From positions 124,001 through 188,000 of the forward strand of contig NZ_OY782495.1 of the NCBI RefSeq assembly GCF_963677715.1: DNA of 64,000 nt, read 5' to 3'. This document shows positions 40,723-45,525 of the stretch, piece after piece. The number at the start of each line of letters is the position of its first letter. The stretch's first letter is position 1. The notes beneath the pieces are model-generated. The model searched no databases. It saw nothing but the letters and a program-made list of their open reading frames with translations, and was not told the origin of the DNA. Source of the DNA: an uncultured Bacteroides sp. (GTDB lineage Bacteria; Bacteroidota; Bacteroidia; Bacteroidales; Bacteroidaceae). The translations under genes were made by a program, and so were the position numbers.

Positions 40723-40963
40723 CCCTACATTCTATACCTAGTTTTAACCTACTTTTATCAGCGTATTCGGCATTGCAGTTCTTCTCATCTACATATATTA
40801 TCGTTGCACTATTTAACCTGAGAGGATGCTTTTCTACGTCTCTCACTCGCTGTTCTCGTATTGACTTCTCAATTCTGTCTTGATCTGCATTATGAGTTAT
40901 ATCTTCCTTGCGTGGTGTGCCTCTCTCAGTTATATCAGCCGAATTATTATTTATTCTTTTCAT
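40709..40963 (-). CDS. Small basic phage protein (TERGT/HPLRLNS family), paralogue
   Basis: The ATG at 40963 aligns with the + strand paralogue at 14557-14793: TERGTPRK, a helix with EQRVRD, then HPLRLNSATIIYV and KLGIE. The frame upstream to 40996 would overlap the preceding gene more. It overlaps the deoxyribosyltransferase-like gene by 17 bases. Two copies on opposite arms suggest exchange between modules. Confidence 0.65.
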   Translation of the reverse strand: MKRINNNSADITERGTPRKEDITHNADQDRIEKSIREQRVRDVEKHPLRLNSATIIYVDEKNCNAEYADKSRLKLGIECRDGKR

Positions 40964-41654
40964 TGGTTCTTGCTTTAAATCGTTTACATAATTCACATAT
41001 CAATATATCCGGATCCTCATTCATGTTAACCGGTACTTGCAGCGTCCAAGCTTTTCCTCCTGATTTAGCTAGTTTACTCACCCAATCTTCGCATCTCTTA
41101 ATGAGATTTTCATTATCTAAATTGCATGCATTGCTAAATACTTCATTGCTAAAATGTACACATGCTATATGATCTTTACATGCCGGCACTGGCCCAAGAC
41201 TACACTCGCAGAAGGAATCGCAATCTCCGCATTTATTGCTCAGTTCTATTGATAGATCTGATACGCTGCAAAATATCCCATCATAGATTTTGTACATTAG
41301 TTCAGGCTCTTCTTTATCAGGAGATAAGACATATACCTTTTTGCCTGCACCCTTCATCCATCCCGCCTCCGTATTGGCCGATCGCCCACATGGTAGTACC
41401 ATAACACATATATCTGCCCATTGCATGGCGCTAAAATCAGAGTTAAAGCCGGCAATAGCGACGGGATGGTTTAATGCTTTCCTGTATTGTTCTGTAGTCC
41501 AGTTCGGCCAATTTACATCTATTTCTGACCATTGAAAACCAGTTTGCCCTGGCGGATTCATGAAATCATATACTTCATGACCTGCATACCTTAACCGCTT
41601 TACTACTTCTTGTTGGAATATATTCCTCCAACTGCTTGCTACATATATTTTCAT
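40947..41654 (-). CDS. Deoxyribosyltransferase-like protein fused to a second domain
   Basis: From the ATG at 41654 (KIYVASSWRNIFQQEVVKRL) the first 150 residues match the + strand protein at 13159-13701 almost throughout, including ADICVMVLPCGRSANTEAG. A Cys-rich spacer (CGDCDSFCEC, then ACKDHIAC) leads to a C-terminal domain with SGGKAWTLQVPVNMNEDPD that corresponds to the free-standing protein at 3819-4187. So this copy joins two proteins that are separate in the left arm. Catalytic activity is unproven. Confidence 0.8.
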   Translation of the reverse strand: MKIYVASSWRNIFQQEVVKRLRYAGHEVYDFMNPPGQTGFQWSEIDVNWPNWTTEQYRKALNHPVAIAGFNSDFSAMQWADICVMVLPCGRSANTEAGWMKGAGKKVYVLSPDKEEPELMYKIYDGIFCSVSDLSIELSNKCGDCDSFCECSLGPVPACKDHIACVHFSNEVFSNACNLDNENLIKRCEDWVSKLAKSGGKAWTLQVPVNMNEDPDILICELCKRFKARTNEKNK

Positions 41655-41665
41655 GATAGAATAAT

Positions 41666-42286
41666 TTATAGTCCAACACCAATCAATACGCATGGAATAC
41701 TTTTCTTTTCAGCTTCAACAAACATATTCCAAAAATCAAGACTAGTATATCCATCTAATACATCACCATCTTCGTCTGTATCATATATTTTTATATCCTT
41801 AATTTTATTGCGATCAATCACATCTGCATCGTAACCTTCTTTATCATAAGATTCACCGCATTCATTTATGCATACTTGTATTGCTTCTTCTTCTGTATTA
41901 GCAATAATAAATAGGCACTCATCTACTAGATACAGATTCATTTCCTTGGCGACATCTTCTTCTACTTCTATCTCTCTTATTAGTTTACTTGTAGTTACAT
42001 TAAAAAGCATCTTTCTGCCATGCCAATACAGAGTACCTCTATCCGCACAAATATTGCCATTCTCTGGTTTTTCATACCCGCTGCAACACTTCTTTCTACA
42101 TTCACTTTTTTCTTTAGTTTCTCCGAAAGCTTCGCACCAGATATATTCTTTTTCTGTATCCGGATCTGCTTCGAAAAGAGTTATTTCGCTGAGGCCTTCT
42201 TCCTTAGCCTCATTTATAAAATCTTCTAAAGATTGCACACTGCATGAATCTTCATCTTTAAAATAAAGTTGTTCTACTTTTTTCAT
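41666..42286 (-). CDS. Hypothetical acidic protein with Cys cluster, 206 aa
   Basis: Residues 50-90 hold a Cys-rich segment (WCEAFG, CRKKCCSGY, NICADRGTLYWHGR) that looks like a metal site. The rest is acidic, with a helical middle and a C-terminal domain (VCINECGESYDKEGYDADVI). It precedes the deoxyribosyltransferase-like gene and follows the methyltransferase by 6 bases. Function unknown. Confidence 0.6.
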   Translation of the reverse strand: MKKVEQLYFKDEDSCSVQSLEDFINEAKEEGLSEITLFEADPDTEKEYIWCEAFGETKEKSECRKKCCSGYEKPENGNICADRGTLYWHGRKMLFNVTTSKLIREIEVEEDVAKEMNLYLVDECLFIIANTEEEAIQVCINECGESYDKEGYDADVIDRNKIKDIKIYDTDEDGDVLDGYTSLDFWNMFVEAEKKSIPCVLIGVGL

Positions 42287-42292
42287 ATTTGA

Positions 42293-43027
42293 TTATATTT
42301 GATAGTTAATACTATTATCTGTATTTTTAATACATTCGAATAAATACTTCGCTACTAACGGTTGCACAGCATTTCCTAATGATCTAATTCTGTCCAGTGA
42401 ATTGGGTATGTCATTAGCTTTTCTAATAGTTCTGGGTGAGGGTATATCCCGTCTTGTTCGCCATCCCGGATAAACTCGTGCAGATTCCCCCGATAAGTAG
42501 GGCTTCCGAAATATCGATTCTTTGATGCCCCTTTTGCAGATGATTTCACGATTGTAGGCAATACAATATAATCTTTCCCTACCCTGTTGAATGCCAAAGT
42601 CGGTACCCGATAAACATTGCCATTCTGCATTATACCCGATTTTGGAAAGATTGCATAAGATTTGCTCGAATCCTCGAATAAGGAGCATTGGGCTATTTTC
42701 AATAAGGACATATTTAGGTCTAATTTCCCGTATAATTCTAAACATTTCAATGTATAGCCCGCTTCTATCGCCTTTAATTCCAATACCTTTGCCTGCAATA
42801 CTGACATCTTGACAAGGAAATCCTCCACTGATGATGTCGACATATTCTGGACTTTGTAATTTTCTAATATCTTCATAATGCATTGCTTTTAAAAAGTGTT
42901 TTTTTAAAATTTTCCCTTGAAACCTTTCTATCTCACAATTCCATAATGTTTCTATTCCACACCATTGAGCCCCTAACTCAAATCCTCCTATGCCGCTGAA
43001 TAGAGAACCATGTGTTAAACTCTTCAT
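42293..43027 (-). CDS. DNA cytosine-5 methyltransferase, 244 aa
   Basis: Motif I (GSLFSGIGGFELG) is at residues 7-19, motif IV (GGFPCQDVS, catalytic Cys) at about 68-76, motif VI (ENSP) near residue 110, motif VIII (QGRERLYCIA) near residue 148, and motif X (RSLGNAVQP) near residue 216. The variable target recognition region is very short. It is likely an orphan phage methylase, since no nuclease partner is seen. The frame fully contains a second gene in another frame (42376-42876). Confidence 0.9.
   Translation of the reverse strand: MKSLTHGSLFSGIGGFELGAQWCGIETLWNCEIERFQGKILKKHFLKAMHYEDIRKLQSPEYVDIISGGFPCQDVSIAGKGIGIKGDRSGLYIEMFRIIREIRPKYVLIENSPMLLIRGFEQILCNLSKIGYNAEWQCLSGTDFGIQQGRERLYCIAYNREIICKRGIKESIFRKPYLSGESARVYPGWRTRRDIPSPRTIRKANDIPNSLDRIRSLGNAVQPLVAKYLFECIKNTDNSINYQI
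42376..42876 (-). CDS. Overprinted methylase-associated protein inside the MTase gene
   Basis: This 166-residue frame lies entirely inside the methyltransferase gene in another frame of the same strand. It reads SYAIFPKSGIMQNGNVYRVP near residue 73, then YFGSPTYRGNLHEFIRDG and ends YPHPELLEKLMTYPIHWTEL. These are the segments I recognise from proteins encoded next to phage cytosine methyltransferases (PRSGMMxNG..LMGFPxGWT). That the pattern survives suggests both frames are expressed. If so, selection acts on both. No ribosome site is visible and its function is unknown. Confidence 0.55.
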   Translation of the reverse strand: MKILENYKVQNMSTSSVEDFLVKMSVLQAKVLELKAIEAGYTLKCLELYGKLDLNMSLLKIAQCSLFEDSSKSYAIFPKSGIMQNGNVYRVPTLAFNRVGKDYIVLPTIVKSSAKGASKNRYFGSPTYRGNLHEFIRDGEQDGIYPHPELLEKLMTYPIHWTELDH

Positions 43028-45525
43028 ATTGCTGCATCCATTAAGTCAAATAAAGTAGGGGCCGTAACGTTCATTTCAGCTTCTACCAAATAAGATATTC
43101 CGTCTTTCCAATAGCTATTATTAAGTTCGGTTGATAATCCCTTGCGTCCTAAATTTATAGCGCAATAAGGCACTGTTCCTATACCTCCGAAAGGATCGAA
43201 TACAATATCTCCTTTGTTACTATATCTTTCAATCAATCTTTCTACTATGTCTAATTGTAAAGGGCAAATATGATTTTGCCTATTCTTTTGAGACTGTCTT
43301 GTGTTAAGCGTACGCATACGAGTTACATCATCCCATATATAGTCTTTTTTGCTTACCGGATCTATGGCCATAAAAGTCTTAGGTAGCTTGTTGTAAGCTT
43401 CTAATTCTTCTGCAAAAGCAACGTGATTCTCAAAATTATATAAGTGTTCTTTGGAATATTCACGAAATATCCGTCTAATCTTATCTATATTTAAACCTTT
43501 CAAATCCTCATAGGATATGAGAGTGTCACCTGACGATTTCCAACTTGCATGAGCGTCTATTTGCCAACGAGCAAGAGAGTATTCTTTTTTCTGTTTAGTC
43601 ACCGGCTGATCTGCATAAGCTTTTGAAGTATCTGAAGGTAATTTTCTGAATAGAAGAACGTATTCCTGACAACCTACACCCATCTTCGAGCCGTCCTTGC
43701 ACATCTCTGTATATCCTAAACGATAAGTTTGGTTATTCTCCCTTACTACATCTGTATCTACTGTTATCATTCCGAATAGGATAAATCCATGCTTCATATA
43801 GTGAGATATACACATCGCATGAAAAGGGTCTAATGATGGCATACCTAAACCCGTAGCGTTTCCAAATAATATCCTGTCTTTTACGTGTATAGCTAATACT
43901 CTCCCTGGCTTTAGTATTCTCAATAGCTCTGGTGATAAGTAATCCATTTGCTCAAAGAACTTATCATTATCATAGTTATGCCCGAAATCATTGTAAGTAG
44001 GTGTGTACTCATAGTGATTAGAAAATGGAACTGATGTAACTATCAGCCCCACCGAATCTGTTTCCATCTCTTGACACTCTAATACGTTATCATTATTGAT
44101 TGATTTCCACAGATTACCATTTTTCTCTTCTCGCTTAGAAAACATATATCGCATCATCTTTTCGCCAGCGTCAATACCGAATAGCCCGTTCTCTTTGAAT
44201 ATTGATACTAGATTCTGTACCATTTCATTATGCTGCCGCCATTTCTCCATGAAAGACTTGAATATTTCTCCTTCTGATTCTGCATATACTAGATACAATG
44301 TAACATCATTCTTTTGCATGAAACGGTGAATCCTATGAATCGCTTGAAACTTATCATTAAACTTATAATCAATAAACATGATCGCCTTGTGACAGTTATA
44401 CTGAAAATTAATACCCTCACCTAACATTTCAGGTTTAGCAGCTAAGTATTTTAATTGGCCTTCCTTAAACTCATGTATTACTTTATCTGCTTCTGTATCA
44501 TCCTGACTTCCATATACGGCCTTACATCCTTGTATAGATTTACATAGAGCGTGCCTTTCAGCTTCAAGATCATGCCATAACAGGAAATTGTCGTTTATAT
44601 TTTCTGGTCTATTAATAATTTCTACTACTTTAGCTATCTTTTCTTCCAGATTATCACGTCTTTCTTTTGCAGCATCCGCTAACCCTAAGGCGGCTTCTCT
44701 AAATATCTTAACCTGACCGTCACGGTCCTGCCCGGCGGTTGAATTATCAACCTTTACTATTTCTTCGCGTACAATCAAATCAGGCAAGTTATATCCATCG
44801 TCCGGATATCCTAAGTCAGAGGGTTTAGTTATTACTAAGGCCCAAGTCGAGACCCATAACCAAAACTCCTGTTCTTTGTGAGGATATAGAGTTAAATTAT
44901 TGGCTTTTGTGCTATCTCTCTGAAAGAAACGAGTTAATGCTTGTCCCGTATCCATTACCCCTAAATAGCCCGCATAATGAATCATCTCTTTAAATCTGTT
45001 AGGAGCAGGCGTGGCAGTTGCTACAAACTTATAAGGAACCGCATTAAATTTAGGAAGAAATGTTTGATACGTTTTAGTTCCATAGCCTCTTAATACGCTT
45101 GCTTCATCTAAAGTCGTAGCTATAAAATAAGATGGATCTATATCTCCGTCCCTAACTCTCTCATAGTTGGTAATCATTATTTCGGTTCCTGATTCTTTTA
45201 TTTCTGTCATATTACGCACATACGTAATCTTCATACCCAAATGCTTCTCTCCCTGTTCCAGAAACTCGCTTACCACTCTTTTTGGACATACTACTAAACC
45301 CTTACCTCCTTTGTTTTTTATGATTATTCTTAGTATCTCTAATTGAGTAACTGTTTTCTGCATTCCAAAGCTGCTAAAGATGGCCCTACATCCTCCCTGA
45401 ATTGCCCATACTATGCTATCTTTAACATGTGGATACAAAGTATCCGTCAAGTCCGCTCTATTAAATTCAAATCCGCTATTATGACTTATTGCCATCTTGT
45501 TTTTTAAGAACTCAATGTATTTCAT
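43024..45525 (-). CDS. SNF2-like helicase fused to a DNA methylase, 833 aa
   Basis: The N-terminal part (1-470) is a helicase: a degenerate Walker A (FSSFGMQKTV near residue 45), DEAS near residue 134, ATATPAPNRF as motif III, and a motif VI region AIHRIHRFMQ. The C-terminal part has TSVPFSNHYEY, a variant of the TSPPY catalytic motif, and DPFGGIGTVPYCAIN, the AdoMet site. The order (catalytic motif first) is that of the other methylase. It is probably an epigenetic remodeller of phage DNA; it starts 4 bases inside the OB-fold gene. Confidence 0.9.
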   Translation of the reverse strand: MKYIEFLKNKMAISHNSGFEFNRADLTDTLYPHVKDSIVWAIQGGCRAIFSSFGMQKTVTQLEILRIIIKNKGGKGLVVCPKRVVSEFLEQGEKHLGMKITYVRNMTEIKESGTEIMITNYERVRDGDIDPSYFIATTLDEASVLRGYGTKTYQTFLPKFNAVPYKFVATATPAPNRFKEMIHYAGYLGVMDTGQALTRFFQRDSTKANNLTLYPHKEQEFWLWVSTWALVITKPSDLGYPDDGYNLPDLIVREEIVKVDNSTAGQDRDGQVKIFREAALGLADAAKERRDNLEEKIAKVVEIINRPENINDNFLLWHDLEAERHALCKSIQGCKAVYGSQDDTEADKVIHEFKEGQLKYLAAKPEMLGEGINFQYNCHKAIMFIDYKFNDKFQAIHRIHRFMQKNDVTLYLVYAESEGEIFKSFMEKWRQHNEMVQNLVSIFKENGLFGIDAGEKMMRYMFSKREEKNGNLWKSINNDNVLECQEMETDSVGLIVTSVPFSNHYEYTPTYNDFGHNYDNDKFFEQMDYLSPELLRILKPGRVLAIHVKDRILFGNATGLGMPSLDPFHAMCISHYMKHGFILFGMITVDTDVVRENNQTYRLGYTEMCKDGSKMGVGCQEYVLLFRKLPSDTSKAYADQPVTKQKKEYSLARWQIDAHASWKSSGDTLISYEDLKGLNIDKIRRIFREYSKEHLYNFENHVAFAEELEAYNKLPKTFMAIDPVSKKDYIWDDVTRMRTLNTRQSQKNRQNHICPLQLDIVERLIERYSNKGDIVFDPFGGIGTVPYCAINLGRKGLSTELNNSYWKDGISYLVEAEMNVTAPTLFDLMDAAI

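Follow-up and report, generated by a model that had tools for sequence, protein, structure and literature searches.

The window, that is, the whole stretch of 64,000 nucleotides analysed here, belongs to a 3.9 Mb genome, and the region of the locus is prophage-like, with terminase, portal, tape measure and Bacteroidetes-type integrase genes present in the window. At positions 42293..43027 of the minus strand lies a gene for a 244-aa C5-cytosine methyltransferase, hereafter the main frame, which we take to encode a putative catalytic subunit. A second frame of 166 aa (42376..42876, minus strand), the inner frame, is offset by +1 and fully contained in the main frame on the same strand, as the initial annotation had placed it. 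Residues 7-177 of the main frame match PF00145, and the frame displays the conserved motifs I, IV, VI, VIII and X, all on the minus strand. Across 42 aligned rows motif IV with the catalytic Cys (GGFPCQ, 42809..42826) is invariant or nearly so, while the Glu and Asn of motif VI (ENSP, 42689..42700) and both Arg residues of motif VIII (QGRERLY, 42566..42586) are invariant. The motif X core (LGNAV, 42365..42379) is overlapped by the stop codon of the inner frame.

The initial annotation credited the main frame with all core motifs. This holds for motifs I, IV, VI, VIII and X; however, a motif IX profile finds no motif IX in the main frame of the window, and a folded recognition domain is missing as well. 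Motif IX was detected in the main frame of 2 out of 156 dual-frame genes, versus 29 out of 30 PF00145 controls. Of these 30 controls, 22 contributed to the profile, and 7 of the 8 held out score at least 8 bits. The linker between motifs VIII and X (42380..42553, minus strand) comprises only about 58 main-frame residues and is largely predicted to be unfolded, with AlphaFold2 pLDDT values below 50 at residues 177-216 and above 90 for most of the core; the main frame was also put through VIA-align. Motif IX and a folded recognition domain between motifs VIII and X, which together in one frame would make a complete single-chain C5-methyltransferase, are therefore not found here, and in lacking motif IX the main frame resembles the large polypeptide of a two-polypeptide enzyme. 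The missing motif IX is a main reason why a split enzyme is to be expected.

Three loci depart from this pattern. The main frames of L146 (Streptococcus phage IPP14), L083 (Vibrio phage S4-7) and L070 (a Ruminiclostridium MAG) include a motif IX, and each of these loci also has a long open +1 frame that stops short of it; an LxDILExxxPEKxFLS-like stretch lies in that of L146 and L070. Open +1 frames are thus not all accounted for by the split-enzyme reading. Those of the three loci may be relics or code for another type of nested partner. A further observation comes from a methyltransferase of genome G394 (L125/L129/L143) drawn as a control: it is without motif IX, and an inner-family motif IX (LNPRFVAEMMGFPKDWTEL) is found in another frame, after a stop codon.

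The inner frame is open far beyond chance. We shuffled synonymous codons within the gene, which leaves the protein and the codon usage unchanged. The longest open +1 run in the window measures 170 codons against a mean of 57 in the shuffles, none of 300 reaching 170 (p=0.003, the floor of a 300-shuffle test), whereas the +2 run is ordinary (40 codons versus 34, p=0.19). From 98 genes we retained 95 of at least 600 nt and then 64 non-redundant ones, L051, L070 and L083 included; the +1 run exceeds the shuffle expectation (p<=0.05) in 62 of these 64 and the +2 run in 2. Many of these loci had been found via the inner frame, and so a second set was selected by the main frame alone, by scanning viral contigs with the motif IV pattern and taking the best 80 of at least 598 relatives. 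All 80 match the inner-family profile at +1, a result valid for the closer members of the family, as the best 80 of the 598 are partly near-identical or already in the earlier set; in the same best 80, 73 pass the shuffle test at +1 and 5 at +2. All 30 control genes, PF00145 members taken from the phylum, fail the open-frame test, the lowest p being 0.085. Near main-frame relatives (E<=1e-30) occur in 4 of 393 genomes of the order (the source genome and three others), and the same 4 carry an inner match; a main-frame scan of genome contigs gave one distant relative. The initial annotation had also held that relatives of the inner protein usually lie beside phage methyltransferases. They are rather nested within them, with the inner match at +1 of the main frame in 183/183 loci matching both profiles (a redundant set).

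The substitution pattern also points to two coding frames. In 19 independent pairs, counting only changes that are nonsynonymous in the main frame, the inner frame has a dN/dS of 0.16 (95% CI 0.12-0.22); that of the main frame is 0.10 (0.07-0.15). To exclude an effect of codon position, we compared transversions at main-frame codon position 1 only, all of which are main-nonsynonymous. Within the overlap these amount to 13/2760 if inner-nonsynonymous versus 63/2548 if inner-synonymous (Fisher 3e-10), and outside the overlap to 9/1294 versus 7/1055. Position-matched transitions, at few sites, point in the same direction (1/200 versus 81/2570 inside the overlap, 1/98 versus 17/1072 outside). Fourfold-degenerate sites differ less in the overlap than outside when pooled (188/1184 versus 142/565, p 6e-6), although the divergence is lower in only 11 of 18 pairs. 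In a wider and more diverged set of 45 pairs the overlap has a ratio of 0.35 (p 3e-11), as against 0.59 (p 0.05) for the region outside; by part of the inner protein the ratio is 0.73 in the N-terminal part (p=0.4), 0.16 between motifs VI and VIII and 0.34 between VIII and X. The position-matched test finds no significant constraint of their own on the first ~55 inner residues.

The codon positions themselves show where the dominant frame changes. Per-site differences at main positions 1/2/3 are 0.110/0.051/0.240 before the inner frame (position-3/position-1 ratio 2.2), 0.231/0.150/0.137 in the VIII-X linker (0.59) and 0.161/0.093/0.422 from motif X on (2.6). The linker pattern is the one expected if +1 is the coding frame there, and the inner frame is the more constrained of the two in this segment; the flanks show the usual pattern of main-frame coding. 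The wider set gives a milder flip, with 0.373/0.264/0.299 in the linker (0.80), 0.136/0.079/0.302 before and 0.198/0.139/0.393 after it. L051 and L052, L001 and L087 (copies of the window gene) and identical genes were left out of the substitution and codon-position tests, and the wider set also leaves out L128 and inner scores under 40 bits. In both L051 and L052, at about nt 2928-2976, a frame jump moves the main and inner frames together, reflecting either an assembly error or a real frame change. Overall, the second frame is open beyond chance and both frames are under purifying selection, in the inner one beyond its first ~55 residues. The nested frame is thus real and very probably a gene. 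The initial proposals that both frames are under selection and that dual coding is likely are borne out by the conserved open frame, the position-matched substitutions and the codon-position flip inside the gene, and the suggested check of dN/dS and synonymous-site variation in each frame likewise gave purifying selection in both, with fourfold sites less diverged in the overlap (pooled).

The inner protein matches phrog_1008 (E 3.6e-11), as do all 42 aligned relatives, and this family was not found in 14 control genomes. In Pfam, the inner protein has no match up to E 10, and none of the 42 relatives has one at E<=0.01; NCBIfam returns a single match at E 0.014, far below its cut-off, PADLOC none, and the inner-family profile has no match among PDB sequences up to E 10. 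The AlphaFold2 model of the inner protein, computed from 23 rows, is poor (mean pLDDT 50). Three elements can be mapped on its minus-strand frame: a conserved FPKSGIMQNGNVY element (42610..42648), an LPT box followed by a variable, exchangeable module (42442..42561), which we propose as the target-recognition domain, and a motif IX-like end, PHPELLEKLMTYPIHWTEL (42385..42441). The last aligns without gaps to the canonical motif IX profile with E 0.041, but hhalign gives a probability of 1.3 and the canonical Arg is lacking. A score of at least 5 bits for motif IX is attained by 3 of 63 inner proteins and by 0 of 315 shuffled ones.

The stretch from the LPT box to the motif IX-like end varies from 16 to 188 residues as parsed, and its similarity does not follow that of its surroundings. 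The module of the window is 61% identical to that of L153, against 24% for the N-terminal part of the inner protein and 28% for the main frame over the same DNA; between L197 and L034 the corresponding values are 82%, 24% and 26%. Recognition segments show greater similarity in the inner frame than in the overlapping stretch of the main frame in 81 of 83 pairs picked by inner identity and in 23 of 25 picked by main-frame identity, whereas in the upstream region this is so in 0/83 and 0/25 pairs. For these comparisons 32 of 188 loci could not be parsed and were dropped, leaving 118 after removal of redundancy, and pairs whose segments differ in length by more than 6 were dropped too. Swapping of target-recognition domains would produce this pattern, which locates such domains in the inner frame.

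Additional clues come from plasmids, where the inner-type domain occurs in 31 records from Vibrio, Alteromonas and Aliivibrio. In three sequences from Vibrio and Alteromonas plasmids (L151, L232 and L233) the domain follows, in frame, motif X of a C5-methyltransferase. Profile-profile comparison of the fused domain with the inner family yields a probability of 96.8 (E 2e-10, 107 columns), covering both the FPKSGIMQNGNVY element and the motif IX-like end, while the catalytic half of the same fusion proteins gives 0.07. Scores of single fused domains are modest (25.5, 13.7 and 8.7 bits), the best of 300 shuffled domains reaching 1.1. The canonical motif IX is absent from the core in all three (0/3), and the inner motif IX-like end also closes the fused domain of these motif IX-less cores. 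In these fusion genes the +1 frame holds 18-30 stops. The inner domain therefore exists without overlap, joined to the same kind of core. A search with L151 found no relatives of the fused domain in phage records at E 0.001. The order in the single chain of L151, L232 and L233 is I-VIII, X and then the recognition-like domain with its motif IX-like end, a topology that is not among the natural permutations described in the portion of PMC5944983 consulted.

The ATG at 42876 is a candidate start of the inner frame, and no clear Shine-Dalgarno sequence precedes it by eye; one is visible by eye in relatives such as L078, L082, L094 and L095. An in-frame ATG near the start of the inner profile is observed in 58 of 63 cases versus 51.9 expected from shuffles, and so is not commoner than expected. 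The presence of an in-frame ATG near the inner start (52/63), at one point considered as evidence of initiation, was dropped after this shuffle control. Initiation would presumably take place at the inner ATG.

Taking these lines together, we consider it probable that one C5-cytosine DNA methyltransferase is encoded in two halves, one per frame, with the recognition subunit overprinted on the catalytic subunit; our confidence is reduced by the weak motif IX score and by the start-codon control. The main frame would supply a catalytic subunit with the AdoMet site, the catalytic Cys, the base-flipping pocket and the motif X helix, without the small DNA-recognition domain. The inner frame, from a separate start on the same mRNA, would yield a subunit of ~19 kDa carrying the target-recognition domain and motif IX, and the two subunits would assemble into an active, sequence-specific enzyme that the phage might use for marking its own DNA. 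We infer that the inner frame has a start of its own and that the subunits physically assemble, and likewise the specificity for DNA and the biological role. The initial annotation had envisaged a second product supplying specificity, a suggestion supported by the main frame without motif IX, the exchanged inner modules and the in-frame fusions.

Alternatively, the inner frame may be translated and selected while its product is no subunit of the enzyme, being instead a regulator of the methyltransferase or an independent protein, acting for example against host restriction. Such a role would be in keeping with the weak likeness of the inner end to motif IX, with an inner model whose confidence is too low to show a fold and with the prophage-like setting. 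It does not account for a main frame without motif IX, for the same domain being fused to such cores on plasmids or for a main-frame linker predicted to be unfolded where a recognition domain is expected, and we judge it improbable.

Less probable still is programmed frameshifting, which would join the N-terminal part of the main frame to the C-terminal part of the inner one and produce one chain with motifs I-VIII, target-recognition domain and motif IX. The dominant frame does change after motif VIII, the inner start codon is only a candidate, and five loci (L021, L033, L038, L045 and L053) carry motif X in the inner frame and not in the main one, so that one shift would there give a full chain. 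However, the main frame carries motif X again in the window, so that two shifts would be required, and the constraint on the inner frame already present between motifs VI and VIII (the ratio of 0.16 above) is left unexplained by a shift after VIII; we thus hold this scenario to be very unlikely.

The open frame could, in principle, also be a functionless by-product of main-frame composition and homology. Ordinary methyltransferases too give inner-family profile matches at +1, because the DNA is homologous; such matches are therefore weak proof alone, and substitution tests are needed. The inner N-terminal part, moreover, is without significant selection. Nevertheless, most matches in ordinary methyltransferases are weak and run through stops, and the shuffles, the position-matched substitutions and the codon-position flip reject this explanation, to which we give hardly any credence. 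Equally slight is the chance that the family is a split enzyme of which this prophage copy, which lies among phage genes and an integrase gene on a contig of a bacterial genome, is decaying or silent, since both frames are intact and changes between the window and its eight nearest relatives avoid inner-nonsynonymous sites (transversions 4/1186 versus 28/992 at inner-synonymous ones, in comparisons that are not independent).

The split-enzyme reading finds partial parallels in known systems. In M.EcoHK31I the small-subunit frame is nested in the large-subunit gene. This methyltransferase (YGGCCR) consists of two polypeptides, with motif IX on the small and motifs I-VIII and X on the large one, and its predicted target-recognition domain is assigned to the large subunit, according to the portion of PMC3404938 consulted. 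Judged by the motif layout described there, the locus is alike in having motif IX off the large subunit; it differs in that the recognition-like module would reside in the small inner subunit. The window-type pair, in turn, seems to be widespread in phages. M.AquI (CYCGRG) is likewise a C5-methyltransferase of two polypeptides, split in the variable region. The five loci with motif X in the inner frame resemble its division, whereas in the window the large subunit keeps motif X and the main frame encloses the inner one completely. Circularly permuted C5-methyltransferases (M.BssHII and others), in which IX and X precede I-VIII in the account given by the consulted part of PMC5944983, are comparable to the plasmid fusions as natural departures from the usual motif order, the fusions running I-VIII, X, recognition-like, IX-like. 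The out-of-frame HNH genes inserted in phage methylases, as presented in the consulted part of PMC11855218, are a different thing from an overprinted methyltransferase pair.

The frame pair is found in phages recorded from Bacteroides, Porphyromonas, Mycobacterium, Sulfitobacter, Paenibacillus, Vibrio, Lactobacillus, Microcystis and Stenotrophomonas, and also on plasmids of Bacteroides, Acinetobacter and Nostoc. Judging from the five loci mentioned above, motif X has changed frame between lineages; in L079 the motif X pattern occurs in neither frame. Among 19 annotated records with both frames, a count made without L083, L146 and L147 (only partial inner matches), the main frame is annotated in 16, one of which has both, and the inner frame alone in three: L075 (Virus Rctr197k), L079 (Vibrio phage 1.236.O) and L086 (Microcystis phage Mwe-JY08), in the last of which the main frame runs off the end of the record. 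The sole record with both is that of Bacteriophage Lily (LILY_62/LILY_63, 'g62 internal gene'), where the inner gene is annotated as a hypothetical protein only. The family matched by the inner protein, phrog_1008, bears the label 'DNA methyltransferase' and has 329 positions, the profile coming with this label only. In the open-access papers searched we found no description of this dual-frame methyltransferase family.

We lean towards a broader proposition, namely that these genes constitute a large and old family of phage and plasmid C5-methyltransferases in which a specificity subunit is encoded on top of the catalytic subunit. Constraint would be handed between the frames along the gene, and inner modules would be exchanged between lineages, the catalytic protein tolerating this as an unfolded linker; motif X would have moved frames in some lineages, and annotation would usually record one protein. 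If so, what is recorded in many phages as a short orphan cytosine methyltransferase is half an enzyme, and experiments on that protein by itself would be unsuccessful or misleading. Nature would then also offer a widespread protein complex, encoded in overlapping frames, whose specificity modules are interchangeable and which is well suited to studying the co-evolution of two proteins on the same bases; phrog_1008, a labelled PHROG family for which no function description was found here, would be explained as well.

Two neighbouring genes deserve a mention. At 43024-45525 on the minus strand, a gene for an 833-aa protein joins a helicase (phrog_16) to an N6/N4 DNA methylase (PF01555) and overlaps the start of the C5-methyltransferase by 4 bases. 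At 40947-41693, also on the minus strand, the first part of the encoded protein is a nucleoside deoxyribosyltransferase (phrog_12607, E 2.3e-66), followed by an unmatched C-terminal part.
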